This document shows positions 2,286 to 62,964 of a DNA stretch of 64,000 nucleotides, piece by piece; positions within the stretch are counted from its first letter, which is position 1; every line of letters begins with the position of its first letter. The notes under the pieces are model-generated. The model searched no databases. It saw nothing but the letters and a program-made list of their open reading frames with translations, and had not been told where the DNA came from. The stretch is taken from contig NZ_QXJC01000001.1 in NCBI RefSeq assembly GCF_003570885.1, positions 868,001-932,000 of the forward strand. Direction: 5' to 3'. Made by a program: the position numbers and the translations under genes. This DNA comes from Simplicispira hankyongi. GTDB taxonomy: Bacteria; Pseudomonadota; Gammaproteobacteria; Burkholderiales; Burkholderiaceae_C.

Positions 2286-4805
2286 CTAAGGCGGGTCGTG
2301 CTGCCAGTAGCGCCGCCCGACCTCGCGCTCACAGCGCACTGCCTCGGGCGCGTCCGATTGCCAGGTCGCGGCGCCGCAATGTGCCGAATCAACCACCCGT
2401 GCACCATGCTCGCGCAAGCGCTGCACCACGATCGGCGCGGGGTGGCCAAAGCGGCTGCGGTAGGCGGCCTGTACCAGCGCAATTTTCGGCTGCACCGCGG
2501 CAAGAAAAGCGTCGCTTGACGAGGTTTTGCTGCCATGGTGCGGGACCAGCAGCGCATCGGCAGCCAATGGCGCTCCGGCCTCCACCAACGCCAGCTCCTG
2601 CGGTCGCTCGATATCACCGACCAGCAGCGCGCTGGCGCCGCTCACAGCCCGCACGTGCAACACGCAGCTTTGTGCATTCGGCTTCTCGCCACGTGGCAAC
2701 ACGGCAGGCGCCGCCTGCAACGGGTGCAGAACATCGAACTGCACACCGTCCCACGTCCAGGTCTGCCCCGCGACGCAGGGCGCCCAGGCACGCAGTGCGA
2801 GCAGCGCGGCCTCACCAGCAATCGACCCGGTCAGCGCAGCCTGCGGCTGCTGGGCCAGTACAGCACTCGCGCCACCGGTATGGTCGCTGTCGCGGTGGCT
2901 GAGCATGACGGTGTCCACCCGCTCACCCAGCGAGCGCAGCAGCGGCACCAGCACGCGATCGCCCGCATCGCTTGCCAGGCTGTAGCGTGGGCCAGTGTCG
3001 TAAAGCAGCGCGTGCCGCGCGGTACGCACCAGCACCGCGTTGCCCTGGCCAATGTCGGCGGCAAGCAACTCGAAACTGCCCGGCAGCGGCCTCGGCGCCT
3101 GCCACAGCAGCGCTGGCAGCAGCAGCGGCACGCCGGCCAAACGCAGGGATGCGGGCAGGCGCGCAGCCAGCAACACGCCGCCGATCACCGCAGCCAGCCC
3201 CGCCCACAGCGGCGCCGCCGCCACATCGAACTGCGCCCACGGCCAGGCTGCCAGCCAGCCCAGCCAAATGCCCAGCAGTTGTACGCACCAGGCCGCCACC
3301 TGCCATAGCGGCGGCCAGAGCACGCCAGCGAAGGCCAGTGGCGTGACGATCAGCGTGACCCAAGGAATGGCAACGAGGTTGGCAAAAAAACCGACCAGCG
3401 ACACCTGGCCAAACAGCAGCAGGCTGAGCGGCGTGAGCGCCACGGTCACCGTCCATTGCTCGCGCAATAAGGAGAGAAACTTGGCCTTGGCGCTTATGGT
3501 ACCTGCGCTACCAGCTATCGGATTAAGAGCAAACAACACCCCGACAGCCACAAAGCTCAGCCAAAACCCGGCCTGCAGCAGGGCCCAAGGGTCGAACAGC
3601 ACCACGACCGCACAGGCCAGAAGCCAGATAAGCGGCCAAGGCCAGCGCCGCCCGGCAAGCTTGAGGCCCACCACCACGGCCAGCATCAGCACGGTGCGCT
3701 GCGCAGGAATGCCCCAGCCGCTGAACACCGCATACACCGTTGCCAGCAGCAAACCACCGAGCAGGGCCGCAGACTGCGCCGGCCATGCCAGGCACAGGCG
3801 CGGCGCGCGCCGCCACAGCCCACCAACAGCCAGAGCCGCCAGCCAGGCAAAGAGCGTGATGTGCAGGCCTGAGATGCTGACCAGGTGCGCGACCCCCGTG
3901 GCCCGAAACACGTTCCAGTCGCTGCGGTCGATGGCACGCTGGTCGCCCGTCACCAGTGCCGCCACCACGCCGGCGGCACGCACCTCGGCCGGCCCCTCGG
4001 CGGCTGCGGCCAGTCGGGTCAGAATCGCATCTCGGACGTTCTCACGCAGTTGCAGCACCGGGTAGCGCAGCGCGGCGTCCAGACGCGCGGGAGGCCCGTC
4101 CTTCGGTCCGGCCCGCACATAGCCCACTGCCTGCACGCCTTGTTCCCACTGCCTGAGCTCGTAGTCAAAGCCGTTCGGGTTGCGCGCGCCATGCGGCGCC
4201 TTGAGCCGCACCACCATGCGCCAGCGCTCACCAGCGTGCGGCGCGCCGGCTTGCTGGGGCTGCGCACCGCTCGCACCGGCCTCGTGGTACCAGGCCAGGT
4301 CGATGAGCGGCGGCACTTGCAGAGACTTTCCCTGCAGGCTGGCGGAATCGACCTGCAAGCGAAAGCGGACACCCGTCTCCATGGCTTCCGGCAAGCCTGC
4401 CACAGTGCCGGTCACCATGATGTCTTGCCCCTCCAGCGCCGGGTTCAGCGCCGCGCGCGCGTAGTGCAGGGAGCGCAATCCGCAGAGCGCAAACACGGCA
4501 AGTGCAAACGCCACCAACACGAGAAAAAACGCCCTGCGCGGCCTGGATGTCGCCCGCCAGCTAAGGGCGCCCAACGCCAGCGCGACACCAGCGGCGCCGG
4601 TGGCGGCATACCCCGCTGCCGTCCATAAAGTGGGCTGCTGGATTTGCAACGCAGACCCCACCACCACGCCGAGCAGCCCCGGCACCAGCACGACAAGCCG
4701 CATCGGCGCCATGCGCAGCCCTTGCCGTTGCGACGGAACAGGTGCTGGCGGTGCTGGACTGGAATCCGACGCAGAGGTCATCGCAGAGGCTGGCGCCGGG
4801 GTCAT
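2286..4805 (-). CDS. comEC: DNA internalization competence protein ComEC/Rec2
   Basis: A polytopic inner-membrane protein of about 840 residues that forms the channel for single-stranded DNA entry in natural transformation. In order: N-terminal membrane segments and DUF4131 region, the multi-helix Competence domain (VSISGLHITLFAW motif), and a C-terminal metallo-beta-lactamase domain with SHRDSDHTGG and VPHHGSK. Stop is firm. The start is uncertain: the frame is open to 4877, where it would overlap the divergent RidA gene, and in-frame ATGs lie at 4805, 4781 and 4712; none has a good ribosome site. A palindromic repeat is read through in frame at 3477-3530, adding a loop of about 18 residues between membrane segments. 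It suggests the organism is or was naturally competent. Confidence 0.9.
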   Translation of the reverse strand: MTPAPASAMTSASDSSPAPPAPVPSQRQGLRMAPMRLVVLVPGLLGVVVGSALQIQQPTLWTAAGYAATGAAGVALALGALSWRATSRPRRAFFLVLVAFALAVFALCGLRSLHYARAALNPALEGQDIMVTGTVAGLPEAMETGVRFRLQVDSASLQGKSLQVPPLIDLAWYHEAGASGAQPQQAGAPHAGERWRMVVRLKAPHGARNPNGFDYELRQWEQGVQAVGYVRAGPKDGPPARLDAALRYPVLQLRENVRDAILTRLAAAAEGPAEVRAAGVVAALVTGDQRAIDRSDWNVFRATGVAHLVSISGLHITLFAWLAALAVGGLWRRAPRLCLAWPAQSAALLGGLLLATVYAVFSGWGIPAQRTVLMLAVVVGLKLAGRRWPWPLIWLLACAVVVLFDPWALLQAGFWLSFVAVGVLFALNPIAGSAGTISAKAKFLSLLREQWTVTVALTPLSLLLFGQVSLVGFFANLVAIPWVTLIVTPLAFAGVLWPPLWQVAAWCVQLLGIWLGWLAAWPWAQFDVAAAPLWAGLAAVIGGVLLAARLPASLRLAGVPLLLPALLWQAPRPLPGSFELLAADIGQGNAVLVRTARHALLYDTGPRYSLASDAGDRVLVPLLRSLGERVDTVMLSHRDSDHTGGASAVLAQQPQAALTGSIAGEAALLALRAWAPCVAGQTWTWDGVQFDVLHPLQAAPAVLPRGEKPNAQSCVLHVRAVSGASALLVGDIERPQELALVEAGAPLAADALLVPHHGSKTSSSDAFLAAVQPKIALVQAAYRSRFGHPAPIVVQRLREHGARVVDSAHCGAATWQSDAPEAVRCEREVGRRYWQHDPP
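3477..3530 (-). repeat. Palindromic element copy 1, in frame inside comEC
   Basis: Shares the core AGCTGGTAGCGC, then ATAAGCGC and GGCCAAGTTT, with the other copies listed below, in the sense orientation of comEC. It is translated as ALNPIAGSAGT followed by ISAKAKF, a polar stretch in an otherwise hydrophobic domain. This copy is more diverged than the intergenic ones. Confidence 0.7.
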
Positions 4806-4875
4806 TGCCGGATGGGTGGAATGTTGGGTTTCTGCCTGTGTACCATGCGCGGTTTCCCTACAGCAAGAATCTGCC

Positions 4876-5334
4876 ATGAACGTTTACGACAAACTCAAAG
4901 AACTTCAGATCACCCTGCCACCGGTCTCGGTGCCTGCTGCAGCCTACGTGCCCTACGTGCAGACCGGCAAGCTCGTCTTCTTGAGCGGCCATATTGCACG
5001 CAAGGACGGCAAGCCTTGGGCGGCACAATTTGGCCGCGATATTTCAACGGAAGACGGCAAGGCTGCCGCGCGCGCCGTGGCCATTGACCTGATGGGCACG
5101 CTGCAAGCCGCAGCCGGCGGTGACCTCAACCGCGTCAAGCGTATCGTGAAGCTGATGAGCCTGGTCAATTCCACGGGAAGCTTCACCGAGCAGCACCTGG
5201 TGACCAATGGCGCCAGCGAACTGCTGGGCGAAGTGTTTGGCGAAGCTGGTGTGCACGCGCGCAGCGCTTTCGGCGTGGCGCAGATTCCCTTGGGCGCCTG
5301 CGTGGAAATTGAACTGATTGCCGAATTGGCTTGA
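4876..5334 (+). CDS. RidA/YjgF-family protein (endoribonuclease L-PSP-like, PF14588 type)
   Basis: 152 residues. LVFLSGHIARKDGKP near residue 33, AAARAVAIDLMGTL, RVKRIVKLMSLVNS and the C-terminal HARSAFGVAQIPLGACVEIE mark the larger RidA subgroup once annotated as YjgF-like endoribonuclease. RidA itself removes reactive enamine/imine intermediates; members of this subgroup are poorly characterised, and whether this one is a deaminase cannot be told from sequence. The ATG at 4876 is chosen because homology starts there. It is divergent from comEC and convergent with a chemoreceptor 31 bp away. No terminator hairpin is evident. Confidence 0.88.
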   Translation: MNVYDKLKELQITLPPVSVPAAAYVPYVQTGKLVFLSGHIARKDGKPWAAQFGRDISTEDGKAAARAVAIDLMGTLQAAAGGDLNRVKRIVKLMSLVNSTGSFTEQHLVTNGASELLGEVFGEAGVHARSAFGVAQIPLGACVEIELIAELA

Positions 5335-7233: not shown

Positions 7234-9585
<2,352 letters not shown>

Positions 9586-9602
9586 GGGTCAATCACTAAC
9601 TT

Positions 9603-9657
9603 ATTGATAGCTATCAGCGCTTGACAGATAAGCGCTAGAGGCCAATTTGGCTTGAAA
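9603..9657 (+). repeat. Palindromic element copy 2, between parE and parC
   Basis: Contains TAGCTATCAGCGCTTGACAG, then ATAAGCGCTAGAGGCC, then AATTTGGCTTGAAA. It fills nearly the whole 73-bp gap. The AGCGCTT and ATAAGCGCT arms can pair as a hairpin. No T-run follows on the parEC-sense strand. Confidence 0.85.
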
Positions 9658-9658
9658 A

Positions 9659-11641
<1,983 letters not shown>

Positions 11642-11727
11642 GGGCGCGGATTGTAGGACTGTATGAAAAGCCAGTCTGGCCAACCGACCATGGCGCCCAG
11701 GCGCCAGCACGGTGCCGGCCGTTTGGC

Positions 11728-11733
11728 TATATT
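11728..11733 (+). promoter_or_regulatory. -10-like TATATT seven bases before the MFS start (leaderless candidate)
   Basis: TATATT ends 7 bases before the ATG at 11741, with no Shine-Dalgarno sequence between. This spacing predicts transcription starting at or next to the start codon. Confidence 0.45.
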
Positions 11734-11740
11734 TGTTGCA

Positions 11741-12958
11741 ATGCACACGACGCCACCCAAACTCTCCATGTTCCAGGTGCTCGCCTGCGGCGCTGCCGTG
11801 GTGACGCTCTCCATGGGCATTCGCCACGGCTTTGGCCTGTGGCTGCAACCGATCACGCAGGAGATGGGCTGGACGCGCCAGTCCTTCGCCCTGGCGCTGG
11901 CCATTCAAAACCTCTCGTGGGGCCTGATTGGCGTCTTTGCCGGCATGTTGGCAGACCGTTTTGGCGCCTTCCGCGTGCTGATTGGCGGCGCGGCGCTGTA
12001 CGCATTGGGCCTTGTGGGGATGGCGCTCTCGCCCACCGAAACACTGTTTGCCCTGACCACCGGCGTGCTGATTGGCGCGGCGCAGGCGGGCACCACCTAC
12101 GCCGTGATCTACGGCGTGATTGGCCGCCAGGTCCCGGCTGAAAAGCGCTCCTGGGCCATGGGCGTGGCGGCGGCGGCGGGCTCGTTCGGCCAGTTCCTCA
12201 TGGTGCCGACGGAAGGCTTCCTCATCACCGCCATGGGCTGGAAAGAAGCGCTGCTGGTGCTGGCCGCCATGGTGCTGGTCATCGTGCCGCTCGCCTTCTG
12301 GCTGCGCGAACCCCGCTTCGCCAGCGCAGCCCCCGTGCAGCACAGCCAGGGCATTGGCGAGGCGCTCTCCGAGGCGCTGCGCTACCCGAGCTTTCTGATG
12401 CTGACCGCTGGCTACTTCGTGTGCGGCTTCCAGGTGGTGTTCATCGCGGTGCACATGCCGAGCTACCTGCGCGACCACGGCCTCTCGCCCCAGGTGGCGA
12501 GCTATTCCCTGGCGCTGATTGGCTTGTTCAACGTGTTCGGCACCTATATTTCCGGCACGCTGGGCCAGCGCATGGCCAAGCGCCATATCCTGGCATTCAT
12601 CTACTTCACCCGCGCGGTGGTCATCACCGTGTTCTTGCTGGTGCCGCTCACGCCCACGTCGGTGTACCTCTTCTCGGCGGTGATGGGCGCGCTGTGGCTG
12701 TCCACCGTGCCGCCGACCAACGCCGCCGTGGCACAGATTTTTGGCGTGCAACACCTCTCGATGCTCGGCGGCTTCGTGTTCTTCAGCCACCAGGTCGGCA
12801 GCTTCCTGGGGGTGTGGCTGGGCGGCTACCTGTACGACCGTACCGGCAGCTACGACACCGTCTGGATGCTGGCGATTGCCTTTGGCGTGCTCGCCGGCCT
12901 CATCAACCTCCCCGTGCGCGAGCACCCGATTGCGCGCGGTGCCGCGCAGCCCGCATGA
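11741..12958 (+). CDS. Major facilitator superfamily transporter
   Basis: 405 residues with about 12 membrane helices. The N-terminal half has RHGFGLWLQPITQEMGW and the loop 2-3 motif GMLADRFGAFRVLIGG; the C-terminal half has SHQVGSFLGVWLGGYLYDRTGSY. This looks like the monocarboxylate/oxalate-type branch of the superfamily seen in many Burkholderiales, but the substrate cannot be inferred. Start at 11741 is chosen because a TATATT hexamer sits seven bases upstream; a 26-codon upstream extension would cross it. Its stop overlaps the ATG of a 53-residue membrane protein (ATGA), implying translational coupling. It is divergent from parE. Confidence 0.9.
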   Translation: MHTTPPKLSMFQVLACGAAVVTLSMGIRHGFGLWLQPITQEMGWTRQSFALALAIQNLSWGLIGVFAGMLADRFGAFRVLIGGAALYALGLVGMALSPTETLFALTTGVLIGAAQAGTTYAVIYGVIGRQVPAEKRSWAMGVAAAAGSFGQFLMVPTEGFLITAMGWKEALLVLAAMVLVIVPLAFWLREPRFASAAPVQHSQGIGEALSEALRYPSFLMLTAGYFVCGFQVVFIAVHMPSYLRDHGLSPQVASYSLALIGLFNVFGTYISGTLGQRMAKRHILAFIYFTRAVVITVFLLVPLTPTSVYLFSAVMGALWLSTVPPTNAAVAQIFGVQHLSMLGGFVFFSHQVGSFLGVWLGGYLYDRTGSYDTVWMLAIAFGVLAGLINLPVREHPIARGAAQPA

Positions 12959-13116
12959 CCGAAGCACCGGCACCGGGCAGCGCCTTGCCGCGCAGGCCCT
13001 GGCGCCGCCGCGCCGCTTGGACGGCGGCGCTGCTGGCGCTCGCAGCCGTGTTTGCGCTCTACCAGCGGCCCGACTTCCTGGTGATGCTGGCCGATCAGGC
13101 CTGGGCCTGTTTTTGA
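12955..13116 (+). CDS. Small single-pass membrane protein coupled to the MFS gene
   Basis: 53 residues. A short Pro/Arg-rich cytoplasmic head (RRPWRRRAAW) precedes one hydrophobic helix of about 17 residues (AALLALAAVFALYQ), then the conserved-looking tail RPDFLVMLADQAWACF. Positive-inside placement puts the C-terminus in the periplasm. I have seen similar small proteins in related betaproteobacteria but know no function. The ATG overlaps the MFS stop codon, which makes it a candidate accessory subunit of that transporter. The TGA stop lies at the start of a palindromic repeat. Confidence 0.7.
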   Translation: MTEAPAPGSALPRRPWRRRAAWTAALLALAAVFALYQRPDFLVMLADQAWACF

Positions 13117-13174
13117 TGCCAAATCAGCCTCTAGCGCTTATTGCATAAGCGCTTCCAGCTATATCTTTTGATAG
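13111..13174 (-). repeat. Palindromic element copy 3, before the methyltransferase gene
   Basis: Read on the minus strand: CTATCAAAAGATATAGCTGG, then AAGCGCTTATGCAATAAGCGC, shortened here to its arms AGCGCTTAT and ATAAGCGCT, then AGAGGCTGATTTGGCATC. It is one of the best preserved copies, with perfect 9-bp inverted arms around a 3-base loop. It supplies the stop codon region of the 53-residue protein and the leader of the next gene. Confidence 0.85.
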
Positions 13175-13179
13175 CCTCC

Positions 13180-21158: not shown

Positions 21159-22381
21159 GGCTTGGCTCCGTCAGGGTGCCGCACGGCAATCTGCTCGATC
21201 AGTTGCTGCGCCAGCACACGCTTGCTGGCGCGCGGCAGTTCGCTGTGGCCCTGCGCATCCACCAAAAGCAGGGCGTTGTCGTCCTGCCCGAAGGTGGCCG
21301 GGCCGATGTTGCCGACCAGCAGCGGCACGCCCTTGCGTGCGCGTTTGGCGGTAGCGTGCACCAGCAGGTCGTGGCTTTCGGCTGCAAAGCCCACGCAGTA
21401 CAGCGCACCGCTGTGGGCACGTTCCGACTGCGCCACAGTGGCCAGAATGTCGGGGTTTTCGGCAAAGGCGAGCGTGGGCGCAGTGCCGCTGCCGTCTTTC
21501 TTGACCTTTTCTTGCGATGCACTGGCAGGTCGCCAGTCGGCCACCGCAGCCGTTGCTATAAAAATAGTAGCTTCCTGCGCAAGCGGAATCACCGCGTCGT
21601 ACATATTTTGTGCAGAAACCACATTGATTCGGCGCACGCCGCGCGGCGTCGGTAGCGCCACCGGGCCGGCGACCAGGGTCACCTCGGCACCCGCCTCGCG
21701 GGCAGCGCGGGCGATGGCAAAACCCATCTTGCCGCTCGAATGGTTAGTGATGCCACGCACCGGGTCGATGGCTTCAAAGGTGGGGCCGGCGGTGACGAGT
21801 ACCTTTTGTCCGGCCAGCCGCTTGGGCTGAAAGAATGCCACCACTTCTTCGAGCAGATCCTGGGGTTCGAGCATGCGCCCGTCGCCGGTTTCGCCGCAGG
21901 CTTGGTCGCCGTAGCCCACGCCCAGTACCACGGCGCCGTCCTGCTGCACCTGCACGAGGTTGCGTTGCGTGGCGGGGTGCGCCCACATCTCGCGGTTCAT
22001 GGCAGGGGCAAGCAGCAGCGGCACCCGCTCCACGGGCCGCGCCAGGCACATCAGTGCCAGCAGATCGTCTGCCGCCCCGTGCGCCAACTTGACCACGAAA
22101 TCTGCACTACAGGGCGCGACGACGATGGCGTCGGCCTCGCGGCTGAGGTTGATGTGCGGCATGTTGTTGTCCGCCCGCGCGTCCCACTGCGAGGTGAAAA
22201 CCGGCCGATTGCTCAGTGCCTGCATGGTAACGGGCGTCATGAACTGCTCGGCCGCCTGCGTCATCACCACTTGCACGCTGGCGCCGGCTTTGACGAGGGC
22301 GCGGCAAAACTCGGCCGCCTTGTAACAGGCGATGCCACCAGTGAGCCCAAGGACGATGTGTTTGCCAGCCAGATCGGTCAT
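21155..22381 (-). CDS. coaBC: Bifunctional phosphopantothenoylcysteine decarboxylase/synthetase
   Basis: 408 residues. It makes 4'-phosphopantetheine for coenzyme A. The N-terminal flavin-dependent CoaC half has [11 protein letters not shown], the active-site His in [19 protein letters not shown], and the catalytic Cys in [13 protein letters not shown]. The C-terminal CoaB half has [33 protein letters not shown] and the lysine motif EKVKK. Part of a palindromic repeat matches residues about 264-276. The ATG at 22381 opens the operon coaBC-unknown-dut; pyrG is divergent. Confidence 0.97.
21555..21590 (+). repeat. Palindromic element copy 4 (left half), inside coaBC
   Basis: GCTATAAAAATAGTAGCTTC followed by CTGCGCAAGCGG matches the A/T-rich left arm and first core arm of the element; the right half is missing. 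In the coaBC frame it encodes [11 protein letters not shown], which also fits the normal CoaB strand, so it may be convergence rather than insertion. Confidence 0.4.
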
Positions 22382-22434: not shown

Positions 22435-25006
<2,572 letters not shown>

Positions 25007-25008
25007 GC

Positions 25009-25299
25009 ATGGCCAGTGGATACATCATTGCCTCGGTCGAAGTCACCCACCCCGAGCAGTACGAAGAATACAAAAAATGGAGCAGTGAAGCCATGCGGGT
25101 GCACGGCGCCGAAGTCTGCATCCGCGGCGGCAAGGTGGACGTGCTGGAAGGCGACTGGACCCCAGGGCGTACCGTGGTCCTCAAGTTCCCCAGCTTTGAT
25201 GCCGCACGCGCCTTCCACGATTCGCCCGAGTACCGCAAGGCCCGCGCCGCGCGTGAAGGCGCTGCCATCATGCGCATGGTCTGCGTGGAAGGCGTGTGA
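25009..25299 (+). CDS. DUF1330 family protein
   Basis: 96 residues, a dimeric alpha-beta-barrel-type small protein: GYIIASVEVTHPEQYEEYKK, then GGKVDVLEGDWTPGRTVVLKFPSFDAA and SPEYRKARAAREGAA. The family is widespread with no assigned reaction. The ATG at 25009 follows the kdsA stop by two bases, so it is in the pyrG-kdsA transcript. The stop is followed by a palindromic repeat before eno. Confidence 0.9.
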   Translation: MASGYIIASVEVTHPEQYEEYKKWSSEAMRVHGAEVCIRGGKVDVLEGDWTPGRTVVLKFPSFDAARAFHDSPEYRKARAAREGAAIMRMVCVEGV

Positions 25300-25311
25300 T
25301 TCGCTCTGAAT

Positions 25312-25369
25312 AGAATAGCTGCCTGCGCATATCCAATAAGCGCTGGAAGCCAATTTTGCTTGAATTTTG
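25312..25369 (+). repeat. Palindromic element copy 5, upstream of eno
   Basis: AGAATAGCTGCCTGCGCATA, then TCCAATAAGCGCTGGAAGCC, then AATTTTGCTTGAATTTT. It fills most of the 115-bp gap between the DUF1330 gene and eno. The left core arm is slightly degraded (GCGCATAT). Confidence 0.85.
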
Positions 25370-25396
25370 CGCGCTGGCGCGCACACCCCGGATTGA

Positions 25397-26698
<1,302 letters not shown>

Positions 26699-34898: not shown

Positions 34899-35819
34899 GT
34901 GGTGTACGCGCAAATTCTGTTTCCCGATTTTTCCCTCATCCTGCTGGGCTACCTGGTGTGCCGCTTCACCGCGCTCAACCGCTCGGTGTGGCAGCCGGTA
35001 GAAGCGCTGGTGTACTACCTGCTGTTTCCGGTGCTGCTGTTCCAGTCGATTGTGCGCAGCCCCATCGAACTGGGCGCCACCTCGGGGCTGATGGCCGCTG
35101 GCTTGCTCAGCGGCGTCTCTGGCATCGCGCTGGCCTATGGCCTGCCCTGTCTGCCCGGACTGCGCAGTCGCATCGAACCACGTGCGCATGCCGGCGCAGC
35201 GCAGGTGGCGTTTCGCTTCAACTCGTTCATTGGCCTTGCCATGGCGCAGCGACTGGCGGGCGCTCCCGGCCTGCAACTGATCGCCGTGCTGATCGGTATT
35301 TCAGTGCCGCTCTTCAACGTGGCGGCCGTCTGGCCCATGGCGCGGAAGGGGGAACACCACTTTGCCCGCGAGCTGCTGCAAAACCCTTTGATTCTGGCGA
35401 CCACCGCCGGCCTGACCGCGAACCTGGCGGGACTGCACATTCCGGATATTTTGGTGCCCAGCGTCTCGCGTATCGGGGCCGCTGCCATCGCGCTGGGGTT
35501 GATGGCGGCTGGCGCAGGGCTCGAATTCGGCTCGCTCCGGCGCGACGGGGTGCTGACGGTGTCGGTGCTCTCCATTCGCCACCTGCTGCAGCCGCTGATG
35601 GCCTGGCTGGCTGCGCGCCTGCTGGGACTGGACGCCTTGCAAACCACGGTGCTGCTGATTTTCTCGGCTCTGCCCACCTCATCAAGCTGCTACGTGCTGG
35701 CCGCCCGCATGGGCTACAACGGACCGTATGTGGCGGGGCTGGTGACGCTCTCCACCCTGCTGGGACCGGCCAGCCTGTCGCTGGCACTGGGGGTTCTGGG
35801 GCCCACCTTGAAACTATGA
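34899..35819 (+). CDS. AEC family transporter (auxin-efflux-carrier-like permease)
   Basis: 306 residues with about ten membrane segments. Starts VYAQILFPDFSLILLGYLVCRF; the crossover region ALPTSSSCYVLAARMGYNG near the C-terminus is typical of the AEC/MdcF family, which exports or imports small carboxylic or amino acids. Substrate unknown. GTG at 34899 or the next GTG at 34902 is the start. Convergent with queG across 46 bp filled by a palindromic repeat. Confidence 0.88.
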   Translation: MVYAQILFPDFSLILLGYLVCRFTALNRSVWQPVEALVYYLLFPVLLFQSIVRSPIELGATSGLMAAGLLSGVSGIALAYGLPCLPGLRSRIEPRAHAGAAQVAFRFNSFIGLAMAQRLAGAPGLQLIAVLIGISVPLFNVAAVWPMARKGEHHFARELLQNPLILATTAGLTANLAGLHIPDILVPSVSRIGAAAIALGLMAAGAGLEFGSLRRDGVLTVSVLSIRHLLQPLMAWLAARLLGLDALQTTVLLIFSALPTSSSCYVLAARMGYNGPYVAGLVTLSTLLGPASLSLALGVLGPTLKL

Positions 35820-35878
35820 TTTTGGTAGCTGCAAGCGCTTTAGGGATAAGCGCTAGAGGCCTATTTCATTCAATATTT
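35820..35878 (+). repeat. Palindromic element copy 6, between convergent AEC gene and queG
   Basis: TTTTGGTAGCTGCAAGCGCT, then TTAGGGATAAGCGCTAGAGG, then CCTATTTCATTCAATATTTT. The right end overlaps the queG stop and its last codons (NENIE). The hairpin may act as a shared terminator. Confidence 0.85.
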
Positions 35879-39314: not shown

Positions 39315-39448
39315 GCGCGTGCGCTGACGCTGGCTGCATGGTGCGTCCTACAGTCTGGCAAGGGATACCGCGCGATAGTGGTGCATCGGCCTAACGCACG
39401 CTGTTTTGCGGCGCGGCCTTTGTTCCACTTTCCTGAAAGGGACCCACC

Positions 39449-39676
39449 ATGCAAACCCGACATCTTCTGATCGCCACCGCCTTTGTTGCCTCCCTGGGCC
39501 TGGGCGCCTGCGCTTCCAACCCCACCAACGCCCAGATCGGCACCGGCGTCGGAGCTGTCGTTGGCGGTGTCGCCGGCAACGCCCTGCTGGGGACCGGCGG
39601 TGCCATCGCCGGCGCCGCAGGCGGCGCCTTGATTGGCCACGAACTGGGCGAAGACCGGGACCAGCGCCGCCGCTGA
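39449..39676 (+). CDS. Short glycine-zipper lipoprotein (OsmB-like)
   Basis: 75 residues. Signal peptide with lipobox LGAC, then the glycine-zipper segment GVGAVVGGVAGNALLGTGGA and GAAGGALIGHELGED. It resembles OsmB-type small outer-membrane lipoproteins, which rise under osmotic or stationary stress in E. coli; the role here is inferred. AAAGGGA precedes the ATG. A palindromic repeat separates it from convergent dedA. Confidence 0.85.
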   Translation: MQTRHLLIATAFVASLGLGACASNPTNAQIGTGVGAVVGGVAGNALLGTGGAIAGAAGGALIGHELGEDRDQRRR

Positions 39677-39700
39677 TCCTGGCCGCAACGCCAAGGCCTG

Positions 39701-39766
39701 AAAAATTTGGCCAAAAGAGCTTCCAGCGCACTACCCATAAGCGCTAGCAGCTCTTTTTTTAGGAGC
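39701..39766 (-). repeat. Palindromic element copy 7, between convergent lipoprotein gene and dedA
   Basis: Minus-strand reading: TTAGCTCCTAAAAAAAGAGC, then TGCTAGCGCTTATGGGTAGT, then GCGCTGGAAGCTCTTTTGGCC. The run of T on the plus strand after the GCTAGCAGCTC arm would suit a terminator. It abuts the dedA stop. Confidence 0.8.
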
Positions 39767-40412
39767 TAACAACTACTCCCTTGCGACTCCCGCGCCAGGC
39801 GCCAAACAGCGCAATCAGCCCCGGCACCAGAATCAAGCCCCAGATGATCTTGTCCAGATGCTCACGCACAAAGGCCAGGTTGCCAAAAAACAGACCTGCG
39901 CTGCTCACCCCCAGCACCCACAGCGCGGCACCGCCGACGTTGTAGGCGCTGAACTTGCCCCGGCCCATGGCCGCCACGCCCGCCACGAAGGGAGCGAAAG
40001 TGCGAATGAACGGCATGAAACGCGCCAGCACGATGGTGATGCCGCCGTAGCGTTCGTAGAAGGCATGCGCCTGGTCAAACGCGCGGCGGTTGAACCAGCG
40101 CGACGATTCCCACTGGAATACGCGCGGACCGAACCAGCGGCCAATCGCGTAGTTGCACTGGTCTCCCAGCACCGCCGCGGCGAGCAGAACGGCCACGGCC
40201 GGGGCAAATTCCATCATGCCGGCGCCGCAGAGCGCGCCCACGATGAAGAGCAGCGAATCGCCCGGCAAAAAGGGCATGACCACCAGGCCGGTCTCGACAA
40301 ACACAATCAGGAACAGCAGCGCGTACACCCACAGGCCGTAGGTGGCAACGAAGGCTTCGAGGTGCTTGTCGACGTGCAGAATGAAGTCGATCAGAAAGGC
40401 AATGGCGTCCAT
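39759..40412 (-). CDS. DedA family membrane protein
   Basis: 217 residues with several membrane helices. The family signature is seen in FVETGLVVMPFLPGDSLLF, GDQCNYAIGRWFG and FYERYGGITIVLARFMPFIRTFAPFVAG, including the essential Glu and Arg residues. DedA proteins act in undecaprenyl-phosphate or phospholipid flipping and membrane homeostasis; which one is meant here cannot be told. The ATG at 40412 starts the conserved part. Divergent from mutL. Confidence 0.92.
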   Translation of the reverse strand: MDAIAFLIDFILHVDKHLEAFVATYGLWVYALLFLIVFVETGLVVMPFLPGDSLLFIVGALCGAGMMEFAPAVAVLLAAAVLGDQCNYAIGRWFGPRVFQWESSRWFNRRAFDQAHAFYERYGGITIVLARFMPFIRTFAPFVAGVAAMGRGKFSAYNVGGAALWVLGVSSAGLFFGNLAFVREHLDKIIWGLILVPGLIALFGAWRGSRKGVVVSS

Positions 40413-40484
40413 GAACAGGCTTTGGGCAGGCGTTGAATAAGGCGGGCCATTATGGCGATCTCTCCTGCCCGCGGCGCCAATCTC

Positions 40485-40490
40485 TAGAAT
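40485..40490 (+). promoter_or_regulatory. -10 TAGAAT six bases before the mutL GTG (leaderless candidate)
   Basis: CTAGAAT ends six bases before GTG at 40497, with no ribosome-binding sequence. It is the clearest leaderless candidate because the hexamer is near consensus. Confidence 0.5.
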
Positions 40491-40496
40491 CTTCGC

Positions 40497-42443
40497 GTGC
40501 AACACGTTTCTCCCCCAGCTCCTACCGCTTCCAAAGCCGCCCGCCGCCCCATCTGCGACCTGCCCGACGAACTCGTCAGCCAGATTGCCGCCGGCGAGGT
40601 GGTGGAGCGCCCCGCCTCCGTGGTGCGCGAACTGGTGGACAACGCGCTCGACGCCGGCGCCACGCAGATCACGCTGCGCCTGCTGGCAGGCGGCGTGCGG
40701 CTGATCAGCGTGGAAGACGACGGCTGCGGCATTCCCCAAGCCGAGCTGGCGGTGGCGCTGCGCCGCCATGCCACCAGCAAGATCCGCACGCTGGACGACC
40801 TGGAGAGTGTCGCCACCATGGGCTTTCGCGGCGAGGCGCTGGCGGCCATTGCGTCGGTCTCCGAACTTGCCCTGCTCTCGCGCCCTGCTGGGCAAGACAG
40901 CGCCTTTCTGCTTGATGCCCGCAGCGGCGAGCTGCGCCCCGTGGCGCGGGCCATGGGCACTACGGTAGAAGTGAAAGAGCTGTTTTTCAGCACGCCGGCG
41001 CGGCGCAAGTTCCTCAAAACCGATACCACCGAGCTGGCGCACTGTGTCGAAGCGGTGCGCCGCCACGCCCTGGCGCGGCCCGACGTGGGTTTTGCCATCT
41101 GGCACGAAGGCAAGCTGGTGCAGCAGTGGCGCATCGCCCTGACGCATGGCGCCGGGGCGGGAGCGCTGGAGCGGCGCCTGGCCGACGTGCTGGGCGAAGA
41201 GTTCCTGGAGCAATCGGTGGCATTGACCCACCAGGAAGGCCGCATCACCCTCACCGGCCGCGCCGGCCTGCCGGACACGGCACGTGCCCGCGCCGACCAG
41301 CAGTATTGCTACGTCAACGGCCGCTTCGTGCGCGACAAGGTGGTGGCCCACGCCGCCCGCAGCGCCTACGAAGATGTGCTGCACGGCCAGCGCCAGCCGG
41401 TGTATGCGCTGTACATCGACATCGACCCGGCGCGCGTGGACGTGAACGTGCACCCGACCAAAATCGAGGTGCGCTTTCGCGACAGCCGCGAAGTGCACCA
41501 GGCGGTGCGCCACGCCATCGAAAGCGCCCTGGCCGCGCCGCGCGCCGGGGCCGTGGCGGCCGCGCCTCCAGCCGCTATGGGCTACGCAGCCGGTGCCACG
41601 GAACCTTCAGTAAATTTTGAACAAAATGGGCCTCCAGTGCTTATTCCACGGGCGCAGGCAGCTATGCAATTTGATGCACCCATCGGCCACCGTGTGGCCG
41701 ATCTGGGTGCGCTGTGGGGCCAACCCCGCGCGCCAGAGCCTGAGCCCGAGCGCAAGGACGTGAGCGCAAGCAGCACTTGGGTGAGCGCCGAGCAGCCTGC
41801 GTGGCAAAGCCCGGCCCCGGACACACCGGGCACGCAGTCCCCCCCCCAAGCCGAGGTCTGGCCGCTGGGCCGCGCGCTGGCGCAGCTGCAGGGCATTTAC
41901 ATCCTGGCGGAAAACGCCCAGGGGCTCATCATTGTCGACATGCACGCCGCCCACGAGCGCATCGTCTACGAGCGACTCAAGTCGCAATGGGACAGCGGCG
42001 CACGCATCGCCAGCCAGCCGCTGCTGATCCCCGCCACCTTCGCCGCCACGCCGCAGGAACTGGCCACCGCCGAGCAGAACGTGGACGCACTGGCCGCGCT
42101 GGGCCTGGAGATCACCCCCTTTTCTGCCCGCACCCTGGCGGTACGCGCCGTGCCCGCCACGCTGGCGCAGGGCGATGCCGTGGAGCTGGCCCGCAGCGTG
42201 CTGGCCGAGCTGGCCGCGCACGACGCGAGCGGTGTGGTGCAGCGCGCGCAGAACGAGATCCTGGGCACCATGGCCTGCCATGGCGCCGTGCGTGCCAACC
42301 GGCAGTTGACGCTGCCGGAGATGAACGGCCTGCTGCGCCAGATGGAGTCGACCGAGCGCTCGGACCAGTGCAACCACGGCCGGCCCACCTGGCGCCAGCT
42401 CAGCCTGCGCGAGCTCGACGCGCTGTTCCTGCGCGGGCGCTGA
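40497..42443 (+). CDS. mutL: DNA mismatch repair protein MutL
   Basis: 648 residues. N-terminal GHKL ATPase with AAGEVVERPASVVRELVDNALDAGA, MGFRGEAL and STPARRKFLK; a Pro-rich linker from about 340; C-terminal dimerisation domain. That domain contains DMHAAHERIVYE, which fits the endonuclease motif DQHA-x2-E-x4-E with Met for Gln, and the late CNHGRPTWR motif, so it is probably a nicking MutL as in bacteria without MutH. A palindromic repeat is read in frame in the linker (residues about 372-393). GTG start at 40497. Confidence 0.96.
   Translation: MQHVSPPAPTASKAARRPICDLPDELVSQIAAGEVVERPASVVRELVDNALDAGATQITLRLLAGGVRLISVEDDGCGIPQAELAVALRRHATSKIRTLDDLESVATMGFRGEALAAIASVSELALLSRPAGQDSAFLLDARSGELRPVARAMGTTVEVKELFFSTPARRKFLKTDTTELAHCVEAVRRHALARPDVGFAIWHEGKLVQQWRIALTHGAGAGALERRLADVLGEEFLEQSVALTHQEGRITLTGRAGLPDTARARADQQYCYVNGRFVRDKVVAHAARSAYEDVLHGQRQPVYALYIDIDPARVDVNVHPTKIEVRFRDSREVHQAVRHAIESALAAPRAGAVAAAPPAAMGYAAGATEPSVNFEQNGPPVLIPRAQAAMQFDAPIGHRVADLGALWGQPRAPEPEPERKDVSASSTWVSAEQPAWQSPAPDTPGTQSPPQAEVWPLGRALAQLQGIYILAENAQGLIIVDMHAAHERIVYERLKSQWDSGARIASQPLLIPATFAATPQELATAEQNVDALAALGLEITPFSARTLAVRAVPATLAQGDAVELARSVLAELAAHDASGVVQRAQNEILGTMACHGAVRANRQLTLPEMNGLLRQMESTERSDQCNHGRPTWRQLSLRELDALFLRGR
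41612..41674 (-). repeat. Palindromic element copy 8, in frame in the mutL linker
   Basis: Minus-strand reading: ATCAAATTGCATAGCTGCCT, then GCGCCCGTGGAATAAGCACT, then GGAGGCCCATTTTGTTC. In mutL it is read in the reverse orientation as FEQNGPPVLIPRAQAAMQFD, within the disordered linker. Confidence 0.75.
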
Positions 42444-42701
42444 GAGCCTGTTCAAAGCCGCTGCGTCGCGGTTTTCACCATGCCACCACGCTCGGACGCC
42501 CTGGCCGAGCGCGGGGCTGGCTTCGCATCGCAAGTTCTGCACCGATTTGCACCACAGTCGCCATGCACCAGCACCTAAACCGGGCACAACAGCACTGTTT
42601 TCGTGCGTCTGCGCCCCATTTTGTCGCATCAATCCATGCCGACTTGGCATAATGTCATGCTGCACCGCCGCACAAACCCCTTTTCCCGAAAGACAACTGC
42701 C

Positions 42702-44045
42702 ATGAAATTCGCGTCCGTCGAGGCTTTTCTTGCCGAGGTAGCCACCCGCAATCCGCACCAGCCGGAATTCCTCCAGGCCGTCACCGAGGTGATGGAAAGC
42801 CTGTGGCCCTTCATTGAGAAACACCCCAGGTACGCCGAGCAAAGCCTGCTCGAACGCCTGGTGGAGCCCGAGCGCGTGATCATGTTCCGCGTTTCCTGGA
42901 CCGACGACCATGGCGCGGTGCAGGTCAACCGTGGCTACCGCATCCAGCACAGCATGGCCATCGGCCCGTACAAAGGTGGCCTGCGCTTTCACCCCTCGGT
43001 CAACCTCTCGGTGCTCAAATTCCTGGCGTTCGAGCAGACCTTCAAGAACGCGCTGACCACGCTGCCCATGGGTGGCGGCAAGGGTGGCTCCGACTTTGAC
43101 CCCAAGGGCAAGAGCCCCGGCGAAGTCATGCGCTTCTGCCAAGCCTTTGCCAGCGAGCTGTTCCGCCATGTCGGCGCTGACACCGACGTGCCCGCGGGCG
43201 ACATCGGCGTGGGCGGCCGCGAAGTCGGCTTTATTGCCGGCATGTACAAGAAGCTCAGCAACCGCGCCGACTGCGTCTTTACCGGCAAGGGCCTGTCGTT
43301 CGGCGGCTCGCTGATCCGCCCCGAGGCCACTGGCTACGGCACGGTGTATTTCGCCCAGGAGATGCTCAAGACCCGTGGCAAGTCGTTCGACGGTCTGCGC
43401 GTGTCGGTGTCGGGTTCGGGCAACGTCGCCCAGTACGCGGTCGAGAAGGCCATGGCCCTGGGCGCCAAGGTGGTGACGGTGTCGGATTCGAGCGGCACCA
43501 TCGTCGATGAAGAGGGCTTCACCACCGAAAAGCTCGCCATCCTGATGGACGTGAAAAACCACCACTACGGCCGCGTGAGCGACTACGCAAAACGCACCGG
43601 CGCGCGCTTCGAAGCCGGCAAAACACCCTGGCATATCCCCGTGGACATCGCCCTGCCCTGCGCCACACAGAACGAGCTGGATGCCAGCGACGCCACCACC
43701 CTCATCAAGAACGGCGTGCTGTGCGTGGCCGAAGGCGCCAACATGCCCTCGACCATCGAAGCGGCCAAGGCGTTCGAAGCTGCGGGCGTGCTGTACGCAC
43801 CGGGCAAGGCCAGCAATGCCGGTGGCGTGGCGACCTCGGGCCTGGAGATGAGCCAGAACGCCATGCGCCTGAACTGGACGGCGGAAGAAGTGGACGCCCG
43901 CCTGTTGATGATCATGCAAGGCATCCACGCCGCCTGCGTCCAGCACGGCACGCGCGCCGATGGCTCAGTGAGCTACATCGACGGCGCCAACGTCGCCGGC
44001 TTCGTCAAAGTGGCCGACGCCATGCTGGCGCAGGGCGTGGTCTGA
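42702..44045 (+). CDS. gdhA: NADP-type glutamate dehydrogenase
   Basis: 447 residues, the same length as E. coli GdhA. It makes glutamate from 2-oxoglutarate and ammonium. Active-site segments are IGPYKGGLRFHPSVN, PMGGGKGGSDFDPKGKS (catalytic Lys) and PAGDIGVGGREVG; the nucleotide-binding fold has SGSGNVAQYA. The ATG at 42702 is the conserved start. The 258-bp leader includes a CATAAT -10-like hexamer at 42648-42653. Glutamate is itself a counter-ion solute in salt stress, which may fit with the neighbouring ggpS cluster. A bidirectional hairpin follows. Confidence 0.96.
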   Translation: MKFASVEAFLAEVATRNPHQPEFLQAVTEVMESLWPFIEKHPRYAEQSLLERLVEPERVIMFRVSWTDDHGAVQVNRGYRIQHSMAIGPYKGGLRFHPSVNLSVLKFLAFEQTFKNALTTLPMGGGKGGSDFDPKGKSPGEVMRFCQAFASELFRHVGADTDVPAGDIGVGGREVGFIAGMYKKLSNRADCVFTGKGLSFGGSLIRPEATGYGTVYFAQEMLKTRGKSFDGLRVSVSGSGNVAQYAVEKAMALGAKVVTVSDSSGTIVDEEGFTTEKLAILMDVKNHHYGRVSDYAKRTGARFEAGKTPWHIPVDIALPCATQNELDASDATTLIKNGVLCVAEGANMPSTIEAAKAFEAAGVLYAPGKASNAGGVATSGLEMSQNAMRLNWTAEEVDARLLMIMQGIHAACVQHGTRADGSVSYIDGANVAGFVKVADAMLAQGVV

Positions 44046-49120: not shown

Positions 49121-50099
49121 GGCCCTGCCCTGCCTGGCAATTGCCGGCCCCACCGCGTCTGGCAAAACCGGCGCGGCCCTGGCGCTCGCCGAGCGCCTGG
49201 CCGAGAGGGTGGCGCTGGAGATCGTCAGCGTCGACTCGGCCCTGGTGTACCGCGGCATGGACATCGGCACCGCCAAGCCCACGGTAGCCGAACGCGCGAC
49301 CGTGCCGCACCACCTGATCGACATCCGCGAACCCTGGGAGCCCTACAGCGCAGCCGCCTTCGTGCAGGACGCTACCCGATTGATCGGCGACATTCGCGCT
49401 CGCGGCGCCCTGCCACTGCTGGTGGGCGGCACCATGCTGTATTTCAAGGCACTGATCGACGGCTTGGACGCCATGCCCGCCGCCGACCCAGACGTGCGCC
49501 AACGCATCGAAGCGCGCGCCGCGCAACTGGGCTGGCCAGCGCTGCACGCCGAGCTGGCCGGGGTCGACCCGGTGACCGCGGCACGCTTGGCCCCGGCTGA
49601 CAGCCAGCGCATCCAGCGTGCGCTGGAAGTATGGGAAATCTCCGGCCAGCCCCTATCTGCCTTTCATGCTCCTGAAAAGAGAGCTTCTAACGCAGACGGT
49701 ATAAGCGCTGGATGCCTTTTTAGCCTTGAACCCGACGACCGCGCCTGGCTGCACGCCCGCATTGCGGCGCGCTTTGATGGCATGCTCGCGCAGGGCTTTC
49801 TTGCCGAAGTGCAGCGCCTGCGCGCCGACCCACGCCTGCACGCCGACCTGCCTGCCATGCGCTGCGTCGGCTACCGCCAGGCCTGGCAAGCGCTTGACGC
49901 CCAAGCGGCCAGCGGACGCCCACTGGACCTGGCCGACCTGCGCGAGCGCGGCATCGCCGCCACGCGGCAACTGGCCAAACGCCAAATCACCTGGTTGCGC
50001 AGCATGCCCGGGCGCCAACGCATCGCCTGCGACGCTGCGGACATGCAGGCCGCTCTGGAGGTCGCCGTGCTGGCGCGGCTGGAGCAGCCTGCGCCATGA
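49107..50099 (+). CDS. miaA: tRNA dimethylallyltransferase
   Basis: 330 residues. It adds the dimethylallyl group to A37 of tRNAs reading codons that begin with U. P-loop [47 protein letters not shown] and [13 protein letters not shown] are all family motifs. The start is TTG at 49107: GGAG lies six bases upstream and the TTG overlaps the MFS stop region, implying coupling. Residues about 188-208 come from a palindromic repeat inserted in frame. Confidence 0.95.
49668..49730 (+). repeat. Palindromic element copy 9, in frame inside miaA
   Basis: GCTCCTGAAAAGAGAGCTTC, then TAACGCAGACGGTATAAGCG, then CTGGATGCCTTTTTAGCC. Sense orientation. It is read as [18 protein letters not shown], between the conserved SGQPLSAFH and [10 protein letters not shown] blocks that normally lie closer together. 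Confidence 0.75.
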
Positions 50100-51353: not shown

Positions 51354-53948
51354 GTGCTCCGCCTCTTTCGCGTCTGGTCCCTCCAAGCCCTCGCCCGCCA
51401 CCCCTGGCAGAGCCTGGCGGCTGTATGCGCCGTGATGCTGGGCGTGGCGCTGGCCTTCGCGGTGCACACCATCAACGCATCGGCGCTGGAGGAATTCGCA
51501 CAGGCCACGCGCAGCATCAACGGCACACCCGACCTGCAGTTGCGCAACACGCAAGGGCATGTGGACGAGCGCCTGTACCCGCTGCTGGCGCGCGAGCCCG
51601 AGGTGGCACGCGCCAGCCCGGTGCTGGAACTGCAATTGCAGGCCAGCGCCACCAGCACCGCAGATCGGCAGACGCCCACCCTGATACGTGTGCTGGGCGT
51701 AGATGCGCTCTTGCTCCCTGCCACCGCACCCGCGCTCATGCCGCGCCCCTGGGCCAGGCTGCCCACCGACCGCCTGGCCCTGTTTGCTCCGGCCGCGGTG
51801 TACCTCAATGCGCAGGCGCGGCGTGCGCTGGACTTGCCCGAGGCACCTGCCGAGGCACCCAGCATCACGCTGCGGCGCGGGCTGGAGCAGTTCACCGTGC
51901 GGGTCGCCGGCACCGTGGTCGCAGGCGGCGCACCACTGGCGGTCATGGACCTTGGCGCCGCCCAAGATATGTTTGGCCTGGCGGGTAGCCTGAGCCGCAT
52001 CGACCTGCAACTGCGCCCGGGCACGGTGCGCAGCAGCTTCACCCAGCGCATGGCACAGCGCACCGACTGGCCGCCCGGCCTCGTGTGGGCCAACGCGCAG
52101 GACGCCGGCCAGCGCATGGATGCGCTCTCGCGCGCCTACCGCGTCAACCTGAGCGTGCTGGCCCTGGTGGCGCTGTTCACGGGCGCGTTCCTGGTGTTCT
52201 CGGTGCTCTCGCTCAGCGTGGCGCAGCGCTCGGCCGCGTTTGCCCTGCTCGCCGTGCTCGGCGCCACGCCGCGCCAGCGCCTGCTGCTGGTGCTGCTGGA
52301 ATCGGCCACGTTCGGCGTACTGGGCAGCGCGGCCGGTGTGGCACTGGGCACGGCGCTCGCAGCGGGTGCGCTGGGCCTGCTGGGCGGTGACCTGGGCGGC
52401 GGCTACTTCAGCGGCGCAGAGCCTGCCTTGCAGTGGAGCGCGCTCGCGGCGGCAGGCTATGGTGCACTCGGTGTTCTGGCCGCGCTGCTGGGCGGCTGGT
52501 GGCCGGCGCGCACCGCCGAGGCTTTGCCGCCTGCGCAAACGCTCAAGGGTCTGCACACCGCCGGTACGCAAGCACCCTCGCCGCGCACCGGACTGGCACT
52601 GTTGGCCACGGGTGTGCTGCTGGCCTTTGCTCCCGCAGTGGCAGATCTGCCGGTGGCGGCGTACCTGTCGGTGGCGGCGCTGCTGCTGGGCGGCATTGCC
52701 TTGCTACCGAGTGGGGCGGCGTTGCTACTCAAGGCACTCGGTGCATGGTCCCGGCGACATCCCCTCGCGCTGCTCGCGGTGGAGCGGGCACGCCGCACGC
52801 CCGGACTGGCGGCCGTGGCAGTCGGTGGTGTGGTGGCAAGTCTGGCGCTGGCCGTGGCGCTGACGGTCATGGTGAGCAGCTTTCGCGGCTCGATGGTGCA
52901 GTGGCTGGATGCCGTGTTGCCCGCACCGCTCTATGGGCGCGGCGCCTCGGCCGACGGCCAGGCGGCTTTCAGCGAGCGCTTTGTGCAGGCAGCGCGCGCC
53001 CTGCCAGCGCTCGCGCGCGTGGAAGGCCTGCGGGTGGTGCAGCTCCAGCCCGACCCGGCGCGCCCGGCCGTCGCCCTGATTGCCAGGCCCCTGCAGGCTG
53101 GCGCTGACAAGGTGCTGCCCTTGATCGGCCCCGCGCTTGCCGTACCGCCTGGCCGGGTCGCGGTGTACGCGAGCGAAGCGGCCGCGGACTTGTGGGGCGC
53201 GCAGCCGGGGTCTGATCTGGCGCCATTTTTAGAGTCTTTTAGGGCTCTAGCGCAGGATGGACAAGCGCCAGCAGCTTCCTTTTTTGTAGCTGGCGTGTGG
53301 CGCGACTATGCCCGCCAGACCGGCGCACTGGTCATCGACAGCAACGCCTTCGCCGCCTTGAGCGGCGAGCGCGGCGCCAACGACCTGGCACTGTGGCCCG
53401 CTGAGGGTACCGACATGTCAAGCGCACGCCGCGCGATCACGCAACTGGCCACGCAGCAAGCAGGCGCAGCGGCGGCCGAGGGCCTGCAATTCTCATCGGC
53501 CGGCGAGGTGCGCGAACGGTCGCTGCGCATCTTTGACCGCAGCTTTGCCGTCACCTACTGGTTGCAGGCGCTGGCGATCGGCATCGGCCTGTTTGGTGTC
53601 GCTGCGAGCTTCAGCGCGCAGGTGCTGGCGCGACGCAAGGAGTTCGGACTGCTGGCGCATCTGGGCCTGACGCGCACACAGATCCTGGCTGTGGTGGCCA
53701 GCGAAGGCGCGGCCTGGACGGGCGTTGGCGCTGCGGCTGGCCTGCTGCTGGGAGTCGCCGTGTCCCTGGTGCTGGTGCTGGTGGTGAATCCGCAGAGCTT
53801 TCACTGGACCATGGAGCTGCGCTTGCCGCTGCTGCGGCTGTTGCTGCTGTGCGCTGCCGTGGTGCTCGCCGGCACCGCTACCGCCTGGCTGGCCGGGCGG
53901 GCCGCCGCGGGGCGGGACGCGGTGATGGCGGTGAAGGAGGATTGGTGA
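51354..53948 (+). CDS. FtsX-like ABC transporter permease (double-domain)
   Basis: 864 residues. An N-terminal helix, a large periplasmic MacB-like domain, three membrane helices around 265-400, then a second half with a periplasmic domain and three C-terminal helices, i.e. two FtsX units fused as in AttF/G-like permeases. It likely works with the ATPase at 50149 to move a lipid or lipoprotein-linked substrate out of the inner membrane. A palindromic repeat is translated at residues about 624-646. GTG start at 51354. Followed 31 bp later by a PLP enzyme and then an AttH-type gene. Confidence 0.9.
53223..53290 (-). repeat. Palindromic element copy 10, in frame inside the FtsX-like permease
   Basis: Minus-strand reading: GCTACAAAAAAGGAAGCTGC, then TGGCGCTTGTCCATCCTGCG, then CTAGAGCCCTAAAAGAC. 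In the gene it is read in reverse orientation as [20 protein letters not shown], in the second periplasmic domain. Confidence 0.7.
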
Positions 53949-61069: not shown

Positions 61070-62896
<1,827 letters not shown>

Positions 62897-62900
62897 GAAA

Positions 62901-62964
62901 TATAGGAAAAATGGCCTCTAGCGCTTATCACATAAGCGCTATAAGCTATGTTTTTAATAGTATT
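62901..62964 (-). repeat. Palindromic element copy 11, between convergent ABC exporter and DUF1178 genes
   Basis: Minus-strand reading: ACTATTAAAAACATAGCTTA, then TAGCGCTTATGTGATAAGCG, then CTAGAGGCCATTTTTCC. Perfect AGCGCTTAT and ATAAGCGCT arms around three bases. Almost fills the 70-bp gap. Confidence 0.85.

Follow-up and report, generated by a model that had tools for sequence, protein, structure and literature searches.

Dispersed hairpin repeats of the repetitive extragenic palindromic (REP) kind are for the most part regarded as selfish or as short-lived. Palindromic repeats can also be coding, as in the Rickettsia palindromic elements (RPE): some of these are translated as parts of housekeeping proteins. 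Three papers that deal with tagged REPs and with Y1 enzymes (PMC3733652, PMC2817692 and PMC6006769) do not, in the available text, name Acidovorax, Delftia or Comamonas, and the main text of the first does not name Polaromonas either. A repeat called BRE (Betaproteobacterial repeat element) occurs in Betaproteobacteria including Comamonadaceae; as given in the accessible part of PMC3110155 it is mostly intergenic with some copies in genes, 75–91 bp long, 69% GC in Bordetella and often tandem, with at most 29 copies tabulated. The repeat considered here was noticed in a 64,000-nucleotide stretch of Simplicispira hankyongi (GCF_003570885.1, contig NZ_QXJC01000001.1, positions 868,001 to 932,000), referred to below as the window. 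A preliminary description, made from the letters alone, held it to be a palindromic element of about 60 bp with eleven copies in the window, hundreds in the genome and relatives elsewhere in Comamonadaceae.

The repeat is real and its description is secure. Our best guess as to its kind is an old, family-wide REP-like repeat, belonging with the dispersed hairpin repeats that are known already. Judged from sequence comparison, it would be a non-coding repeat of the Comamonadaceae that has been kept for use at the 3′ ends of genes, a reading to which we attach a probability of about 0.5.

The repeat and its hairpin

Up to three mismatches being allowed, the core AGCGCTTATNNNATAAGCGCT has five matches in the window where shuffled sequence leads one to expect 0.02. 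A covariance model, R1, built from 36 ungapped aligned copies, recovers ten of the eleven copies first listed, all at E<0.001 (E 7e-17 to 1.3e-4). Five of the ten had contributed to its training (9603, 25312 and 35820 directly, 13111 and 62901 via loci L011 and L012), and the other five (39701, 41612, 3477, 53223 and 49668) are independent recoveries. The eleventh (21552..21589, minus strand) lies in a gene that we take to be coaBC-like, its resemblance to other CoaBC proteins being likewise assumed. R1 does not match it at any E up to 1, nhmmer gives it 14.9 bits, and the copy claimed at 21555 is probably a chance coincidence of coding sequence. Both orientations occur, as had been stated, with the element's F strand (defined below) on the plus strand at 3477, 13111, 39701, 41612, 53223 and 62901 and on the minus strand at 9603, 25312, 35820 and 49668. 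Six of the ten are between genes; the other four are within comEC, mutL, miaA and a gene for an FtsX-like permease.

The forecast of hundreds of copies per genome is right. A relaxed core pattern has 147 forward and 161 reverse matches in the 3.71-Mb genome (308 in all, which overstates the number of places, some palindromes being counted on both strands) and none on either strand in the reversed control. R1 gives at least 150 matches; of the 150 listed, 79 are on the plus and 71 on the minus strand. A close relative, G017 (~88% identical), has 63 copies in 414 kb; the ~150 per Mb that follows is somewhat too high, 14 of the 20 stretches having been chosen around known matches, but the conclusion stands.

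Other genomes have the repeat as well. There are matches in 44 of 120 genomes, the present one included, or 21 of 95 by genus; these counts are lower bounds, since that survey used stricter filters and scored at most 38 candidates per genome. Within the genus, 24 of 26 genomes match (again including this one). When up to 150 candidates were rescored in genomes of five other genera, the copy numbers were 68 in G028, 135 in G029, at least 150 in G040, 149 in G064 and 106 in G048. By name, the exact pattern is found in Acidovorax, Giesbergeria, Simplicispira and Comamonas jiangduensis, besides bins labelled only Burkholderiaceae or Gammaproteobacteria, and the named plasmid matches are from Diaphorobacter, Acidovorax and Comamonas; the proposed association with Comamonadaceae, a family found in water and soil, is borne out. 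The exact pattern has no match in viral contigs. A scan with Rfam 15 yields nothing above gathering score in the window, and at four further loci its sole match, overlapping the copy at L223, is a sub-threshold one to sX6 (16.5 bits where 40 are needed, E 0.88). No published name had been given at first, and neither a name nor an earlier description was found in the literature searched, whose coverage excludes most subscription journals.

The layout first proposed holds, though the unit is 70 bp and the evidence from pairing favours the strand complementary to the one on which it was first written; this complementary strand is F. In 118 distinct copies of the own genome, taken as the best pattern and model matches, information content is at background level on either side of model columns 8–77. 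Read along F, the order is an A/T arm (AAATTT, AAATT), GGCCTCTA, the main hairpin (GCGCTTAT-NNN-RTAAGCGC), about four free bases, AGCTAT, an A/T loop and RTAGY. In the consensus a conserved unpaired motif precedes the hairpin on one strand. AGCTAT and RTAGY are able to pair as a small 3′ hairpin, or else AGCTAT may fold back onto the GGC side. Being a near-palindrome, the main hairpin would form on the opposite strand too.

Pairing is supported by exchanges on both sides of the stem. In an alignment termed A3 (46 copies: seven from the own genome, 36 from other genomes and three from plasmids, nine genera in all), 48 double-changed cells keep a pair, against 19.5±3.6 after shuffling (0 of 500 shuffles as high) and 7–17 with slid partners. 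Examples are GCGTATAT/ATATACGC in G064 and CTGGCGCTTG/CAAGCGCCAG in G028, and orthologs differ by such exchanges as well (T-A for A-T at 37/47 in L206, G-C for T-A at 33/51 in L027). Counted on the F strand over 109 copies (the nine of the 118 with an nhmmer score of 40 or less being left out), the main hairpin has 86 G.T wobbles to 41 A.C mismatches and the 3′ hairpin 84 to 11. On balance this pattern would favour F as the folding strand, whether as single-stranded DNA or as RNA. Folded as single-stranded DNA, three of five copies beat shuffles on both strands (z −2.5 to −4.3).

Fixed positions behind genes

Many copies keep their positions between species. In that part of G017 which was sampled, a flank could be aligned for 18 of the 118 own copies; 16 of the 18 are at the same place in the same orientation there (L030 and L234 with one flank aligned), and for the remaining two a single flank aligned with no element visible, which does not show absence. 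Among 55 copies from other genomes (52 loci), eight are flanked by the same gene pair as an own copy, orientation conserved, and this number is a floor, own copies having been sampled in part. For the locus from G012, the matching junction of the own genome holds two copies, one per orientation. Two of the eight are from other genera (G048 and G028), both between lpd and zapE (assigned by Pfam domains), a junction common to three genera and occupied in like orientation in G000, G009, G048 and G028.

Orthologous regions of seven relatives were compared for the window, the coverage being partial at other sites than the three that follow. The copies at 25299..25368 (minus strand, between DUF1330 and enolase genes by their Pfam flanks; R1 69.7 bits) and 35809..35878 (minus, between a transporter gene and a convergent queG-like gene; 71 bits) were found in all seven with orientation unchanged. 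The copy inside mutL (41612..41681, plus; 41.4 bits), which by protein alignment encodes part of the inter-domain linker, has an nhmmer match of 20.8–45.8 bits at the same place and in unchanged orientation in seven of seven. The element does not look mobile at present.

What has stayed in place has also diverged unevenly. The 16 ortholog pairs (two of the 18 copies, without a resolvable counterpart, being left out) differ at 7.0% of positions in columns 25–40 (18/256), 14.3% in columns 44–61 and 35% in the loop; the arms differ by 18% and 25%, the partly coding flanks by 19–20%, and thirteen columns are unchanged. There are fewer differences in GGCCTCTAGCGCTTA, AAGCG, AGCTAT and TAG than in loop and spacers. 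Frequent gene conversion is argued against because the pairs share locus-specific variants. Set against the flanks rather than against synonymous rates, this unevenness suggests purifying selection and, together with the fixed positions, makes a fairly strong case that the element has a function for its host.

The natural place to look for such a function is behind genes. Genes were called from codon usage by a simple caller trained on the window; by these calls, 104 of the 118 copies are intergenic, nine are in genes and five lack a second called flank; the last two groups were left out of the orientation table. The neighbours of the 104 are convergent in 37 cases, co-directional in 61 and divergent in six. 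In co-directional gaps F runs with the genes 34 times and against them 27 times, and the split in G017 is 17:14. There, the gaps with a copy number 14 of 49 where genes converge, 31 of 259 where they are co-directional and 5 of 53 where they diverge, so that convergent gaps are over-occupied (14/49 vs 36/312 for the others, p=0.003); ten further copies are in genes and three are without assignment. Of 135 gene ends that face a copy, 83 are no more than 20 nt from its edge, and 58 stop codons fall inside the element, although in part this may come from reading frames meeting their first stop in the A/T-rich arms, the genome being 65% GC. The preference for gene 3′ ends is shown, and it is orientation-neutral. 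Copies seem to be mostly single; a few loci hold two.

The favoured account is, then, that the element was dispersed long ago, by means that have left no visible trace, and is at present retained in place, where it would be useful behind genes. Its single-stranded F strand would fold into the hairpin and the small 3′ hairpin, and the cell would use the folded structure as a mark. The most likely role would be to protect or define mRNA 3′ ends or to relieve strain between converging genes, though any specific role is a guess.

Several observations weigh against this account. Two hairpin readings contend for the same AGCTAT; 48 of the 86 main-hairpin wobbles come from the single loop-closing pair 40/44, and pairs 39/45 (12 A.C, 1 G.T) and 30/54 (15 to 2) oppose the F strand. 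Within A1, an alignment of copies from one genome chosen by core pattern, covariation of the hairpin is not above shuffles and RNAalifold gives four pairs only, while L206, L254 and L027, three of A3's seven own copies, had been picked for known stem variants. Two window copies among the five folded do not beat shuffles (z −0.5 to −1.4). The set of 118 leans towards well-kept copies, as do the G017 comparisons, most of the stretches having been picked around listed matches; the arms are poorly constrained, and the depletion of divergent gaps in G017 is not significant (p=0.39). Finally, two genomes of the same genus, G002 and G007, have no match and a third, G005, has only two, so that the element is dispensable at genus scale. 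These three genomes, whose neighbours have dozens of copies or more, form a natural control for loss or late arrival.

The position of copies near stop codons and between convergent genes, with a hairpin predicted on both strands, is also what a bidirectional intrinsic terminator, or another mRNA 3′-end hairpin acting as RNA, would show. This explanation comes off best among the rivals but is still unlikely: a simple terminator scan of window positions 24000–43900 flags none of four copies (17 found vs 15.5±3.9 expected, no excess), the consensus has no U-tract directly after the hairpin, and some copies are inside genes. A canonical intrinsic terminator is thus unsupported.

A selfish REP without a host role, moved by a Y1 transposase (the TnpA-REP or REP-associated tyrosine transposase, RAYT, type) acting on the single-stranded F-strand hairpin, would account for the unpaired motif ahead of the hairpin on one strand and for the wobble bias. 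The enzyme is common enough, with a match in 46 of 60 genomes; a Y1 transposase-like gene (L036:1168-2160), often one per genome and of ~250 aa, is widespread in the family. However, the genome's own Y1 match has no copy within 1.5 kb, and at the 30 Y1 loci covered (the own one included, a minority of all Y1 matches) there are three weak copies. Of the 30, 14 are from genomes that hold the element, and ~5 copies would be expected there by density; there is therefore no enrichment. Nor do Y1 and the element go together: in G003 there are elements but no Y1 match, G002, G005 and G007 have 3–4 Y1 matches with few or no elements, and the two element-less genomes among them (G002 and G007) have four each. 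The 118-copy consensus bears no GTAG, GTGG or CGTC tag and no terminal inverted repeats (its ends are AAAATTT and AATAGYAAA), and the flanks of the 118 share no common motif. A check for target-site duplications resolved none, the spacers of element-less sites being unalignable and leaving no usable empty site. The linked transposase that had been suggested as a partner, and movement at present, are left unsupported, and fixed positions with constraint on static copies speak further against selfish spread, which we regard as doubtful.

Gyrase has been proposed as the binder of the bacterial interspersed mosaic elements (BIMEs) of E. coli, and the repeat could be a comparable double-stranded or cruciform DNA site for a chromosome protein where converging transcription strains the DNA. 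Neutral orientation, enrichment between convergent genes and the conserved unpaired motifs beside the hairpin would fit this, and the A/T arms would favour cruciform extrusion. Against it, the wobbles argue for single-strand structure on one strand and the binding protein is only putative, which makes such a site improbable to much the same degree as selfish spread. That the element is a DNA uptake sequence or short binding motif, with the 70 bp incidental, is very improbable and is rejected: some copies are in genes and a palindromic layout is found in uptake-sequence terminators too, but in 470,507 unmasked bases outside elements AGCGCTTAT occurs once (0.7 expected), GCGCTTAT three times (10.3 expected) and the other six motifs 0–4 times (0.7–8.3 expected), so that no single motif is over-represented.

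Retention for use at gene 3′ ends can be widened into a domesticated, family-wide cis-acting system: hundreds of hairpin marks behind genes, read by a putative Comamonadaceae factor, inherited in place across species and partly across genera and lost wholesale in some lineages, the translated repeat having also supplied the N-terminal part of DUF1010, and its presence in the gcuF cassette marking a passage of that cassette through a Comamonadaceae chromosome. Taken as a whole, this broader picture is tentative. Static copies with a mask of sequence and structure do make a host function testable in cultivable Acidovorax and Comamonas.

DUF1010 and an integron cassette

A search of the own genome with PF06231 (DUF1010) gives 69 matches at E<=1, two of them over the curated cut-off; at the same threshold there are matches in 11 of 14 control genomes, none over cut-off. 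Of the 69, 67 begin at profile positions 1–7 and many contain stops. Thirty-two overlap the 150 R1 matches listed, all on the same strand and in identical register, with profile position 1 at model column 11. The ten best PF06231 matches, three of which are among the 32, all come from loci with a copy at the matched place. The link between DUF1010 and the repeat covers these 32 overlaps and ten loci; the other 30 of the 69 matches are outside it. An example is the match at window 9580–9657 (minus strand), which spans positions 1–26 in the fixed register; such matches often run across stop codons. One strand, one register and copies at matched places identify the start of DUF1010 as translated repeat: positions 1 to ~26 of its 66 are the F-strand translation (LASSA...SASSY). 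The rest of the profile is other sequence. That part of a DUF1010 domain is a translated repeat calls for caution in gene annotation in the family.

The same relation is met on plasmids. Searching them with the consensus brought up five records. In one from an E. coli plasmid, a full copy (L291:3998-4067; R1 58.9 bits) lies inside an annotated DUF1010 open reading frame (ORF) between dfrA12 and aadA2 of a class 1 integron, and a Salmonella genomic-island record has a full copy at the same place (L294:3498-3567; 49.3 bits). The cassette between these two genes we take to be gcuF. The DUF1010 ORF looks as if it runs from the repeat into the cassette's presumed attC, where it ends. The cassette is very common: its 371-base stretch matches 1,825 of 72,556 plasmid records, 1,801 of them over at least 80% of its length. 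The repeat is a sequence fingerprint and, since a copy lies within the cassette, the source of gcuF is likely to have been in the Comamonadaceae. If so, a cassette of resistance integrons once passed through a Comamonadaceae chromosome. The dfrB genes have also been traced to this family in PMC11662351, the available part of which mentions neither gcuF nor DUF1010.

Window copies and known systems

Besides those at 25299, 35809 and 41612, the window has four intergenic copies and three in genes. The first of the intergenic ones (9591..9660, minus; R1 67.5 bits, E 2.4e-15) is between parC-like and parE/gyrB-like genes by Pfam flanks. At 13109..13179 (plus; 59.7 bits) the right arm has a one-base insertion, and this copy is present in G017 and G013 also. 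The diverged copy at 39701..39770 (plus; 43.6 bits) is shared with G017 and G011; G014 has one near the place, none was seen in G004, G022 or G013, and G018 is uncovered there. At 62896..62965 (plus; 73 bits), between convergent genes with an ABC transporter gene to the left, the corresponding place in G011 gives an nhmmer match of 17.7 bits.

Like the one in mutL, the other in-gene copies are diverged and lie within open reading frames. The copy in comEC (3466..3534, plus; 30.6 bits) is in a gene with a Pfam Competence match. That in miaA (49664..49733, minus; 28.8 bits) is found in G004, G011, G018 and G022, with no match in G014, and that in the FtsX-like permease gene (53225..53294, plus; 30.4 bits) in G011 and G018, with no match in G022. 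For mutL, the element-less linker of G002 and G005 is of different sequence and broadly similar length; net insertion by the copy is not shown.

Some neighbouring features may be added. Orthologs of the copy at 35809–35878 have ~100–165 bp of extra DNA with inverted-repeat-like ends, inside or abutting the right arm; this is so in G011/G018 and, as a separate case, in G017. Other small insertions may use the repeat as a target. Beside enolase (27188–28728) the own genome and G017 have extra genes where G011, G018 and G013 have an element copy instead. The ParE/GyrB-like frame at 9659–12925 is 1,088 aa long with ~460 residues ahead of its ATPase domain match, and the start of the protein may be further in.

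Compared with known systems, the repeat differs from miniature inverted-repeat transposable elements (MITEs) in having no terminal inverted repeats, and from RPE in that its in-gene copies are a minority and diverged. It is unlike BRE, being 70 bp, A/T-armed, present in hundreds and not tandem where seen; 81-bp matches of the window copies are 37–52% GC. The distinction from BRE rests on length, GC and tandem layout and not on sequence. CGTC-tagged REPs, according to the accessible text of PMC3733652, are similarly hairpin repeats without a dedicated transposase, though the present repeat has no CGTC tag. The GTAG-tagged REPs and BIMEs with their RAYT stand apart in several ways: the unit here is 70 bp with a second hairpin, has no GTAG, is mostly single, had no flanked RAYT at the loci searched and is fixed between species. 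What it has in common with them is an unpaired conserved motif at one side of the hairpin, and the pattern of hundreds of short hairpins, mostly intergenic, in both orientations, 3′ of genes.

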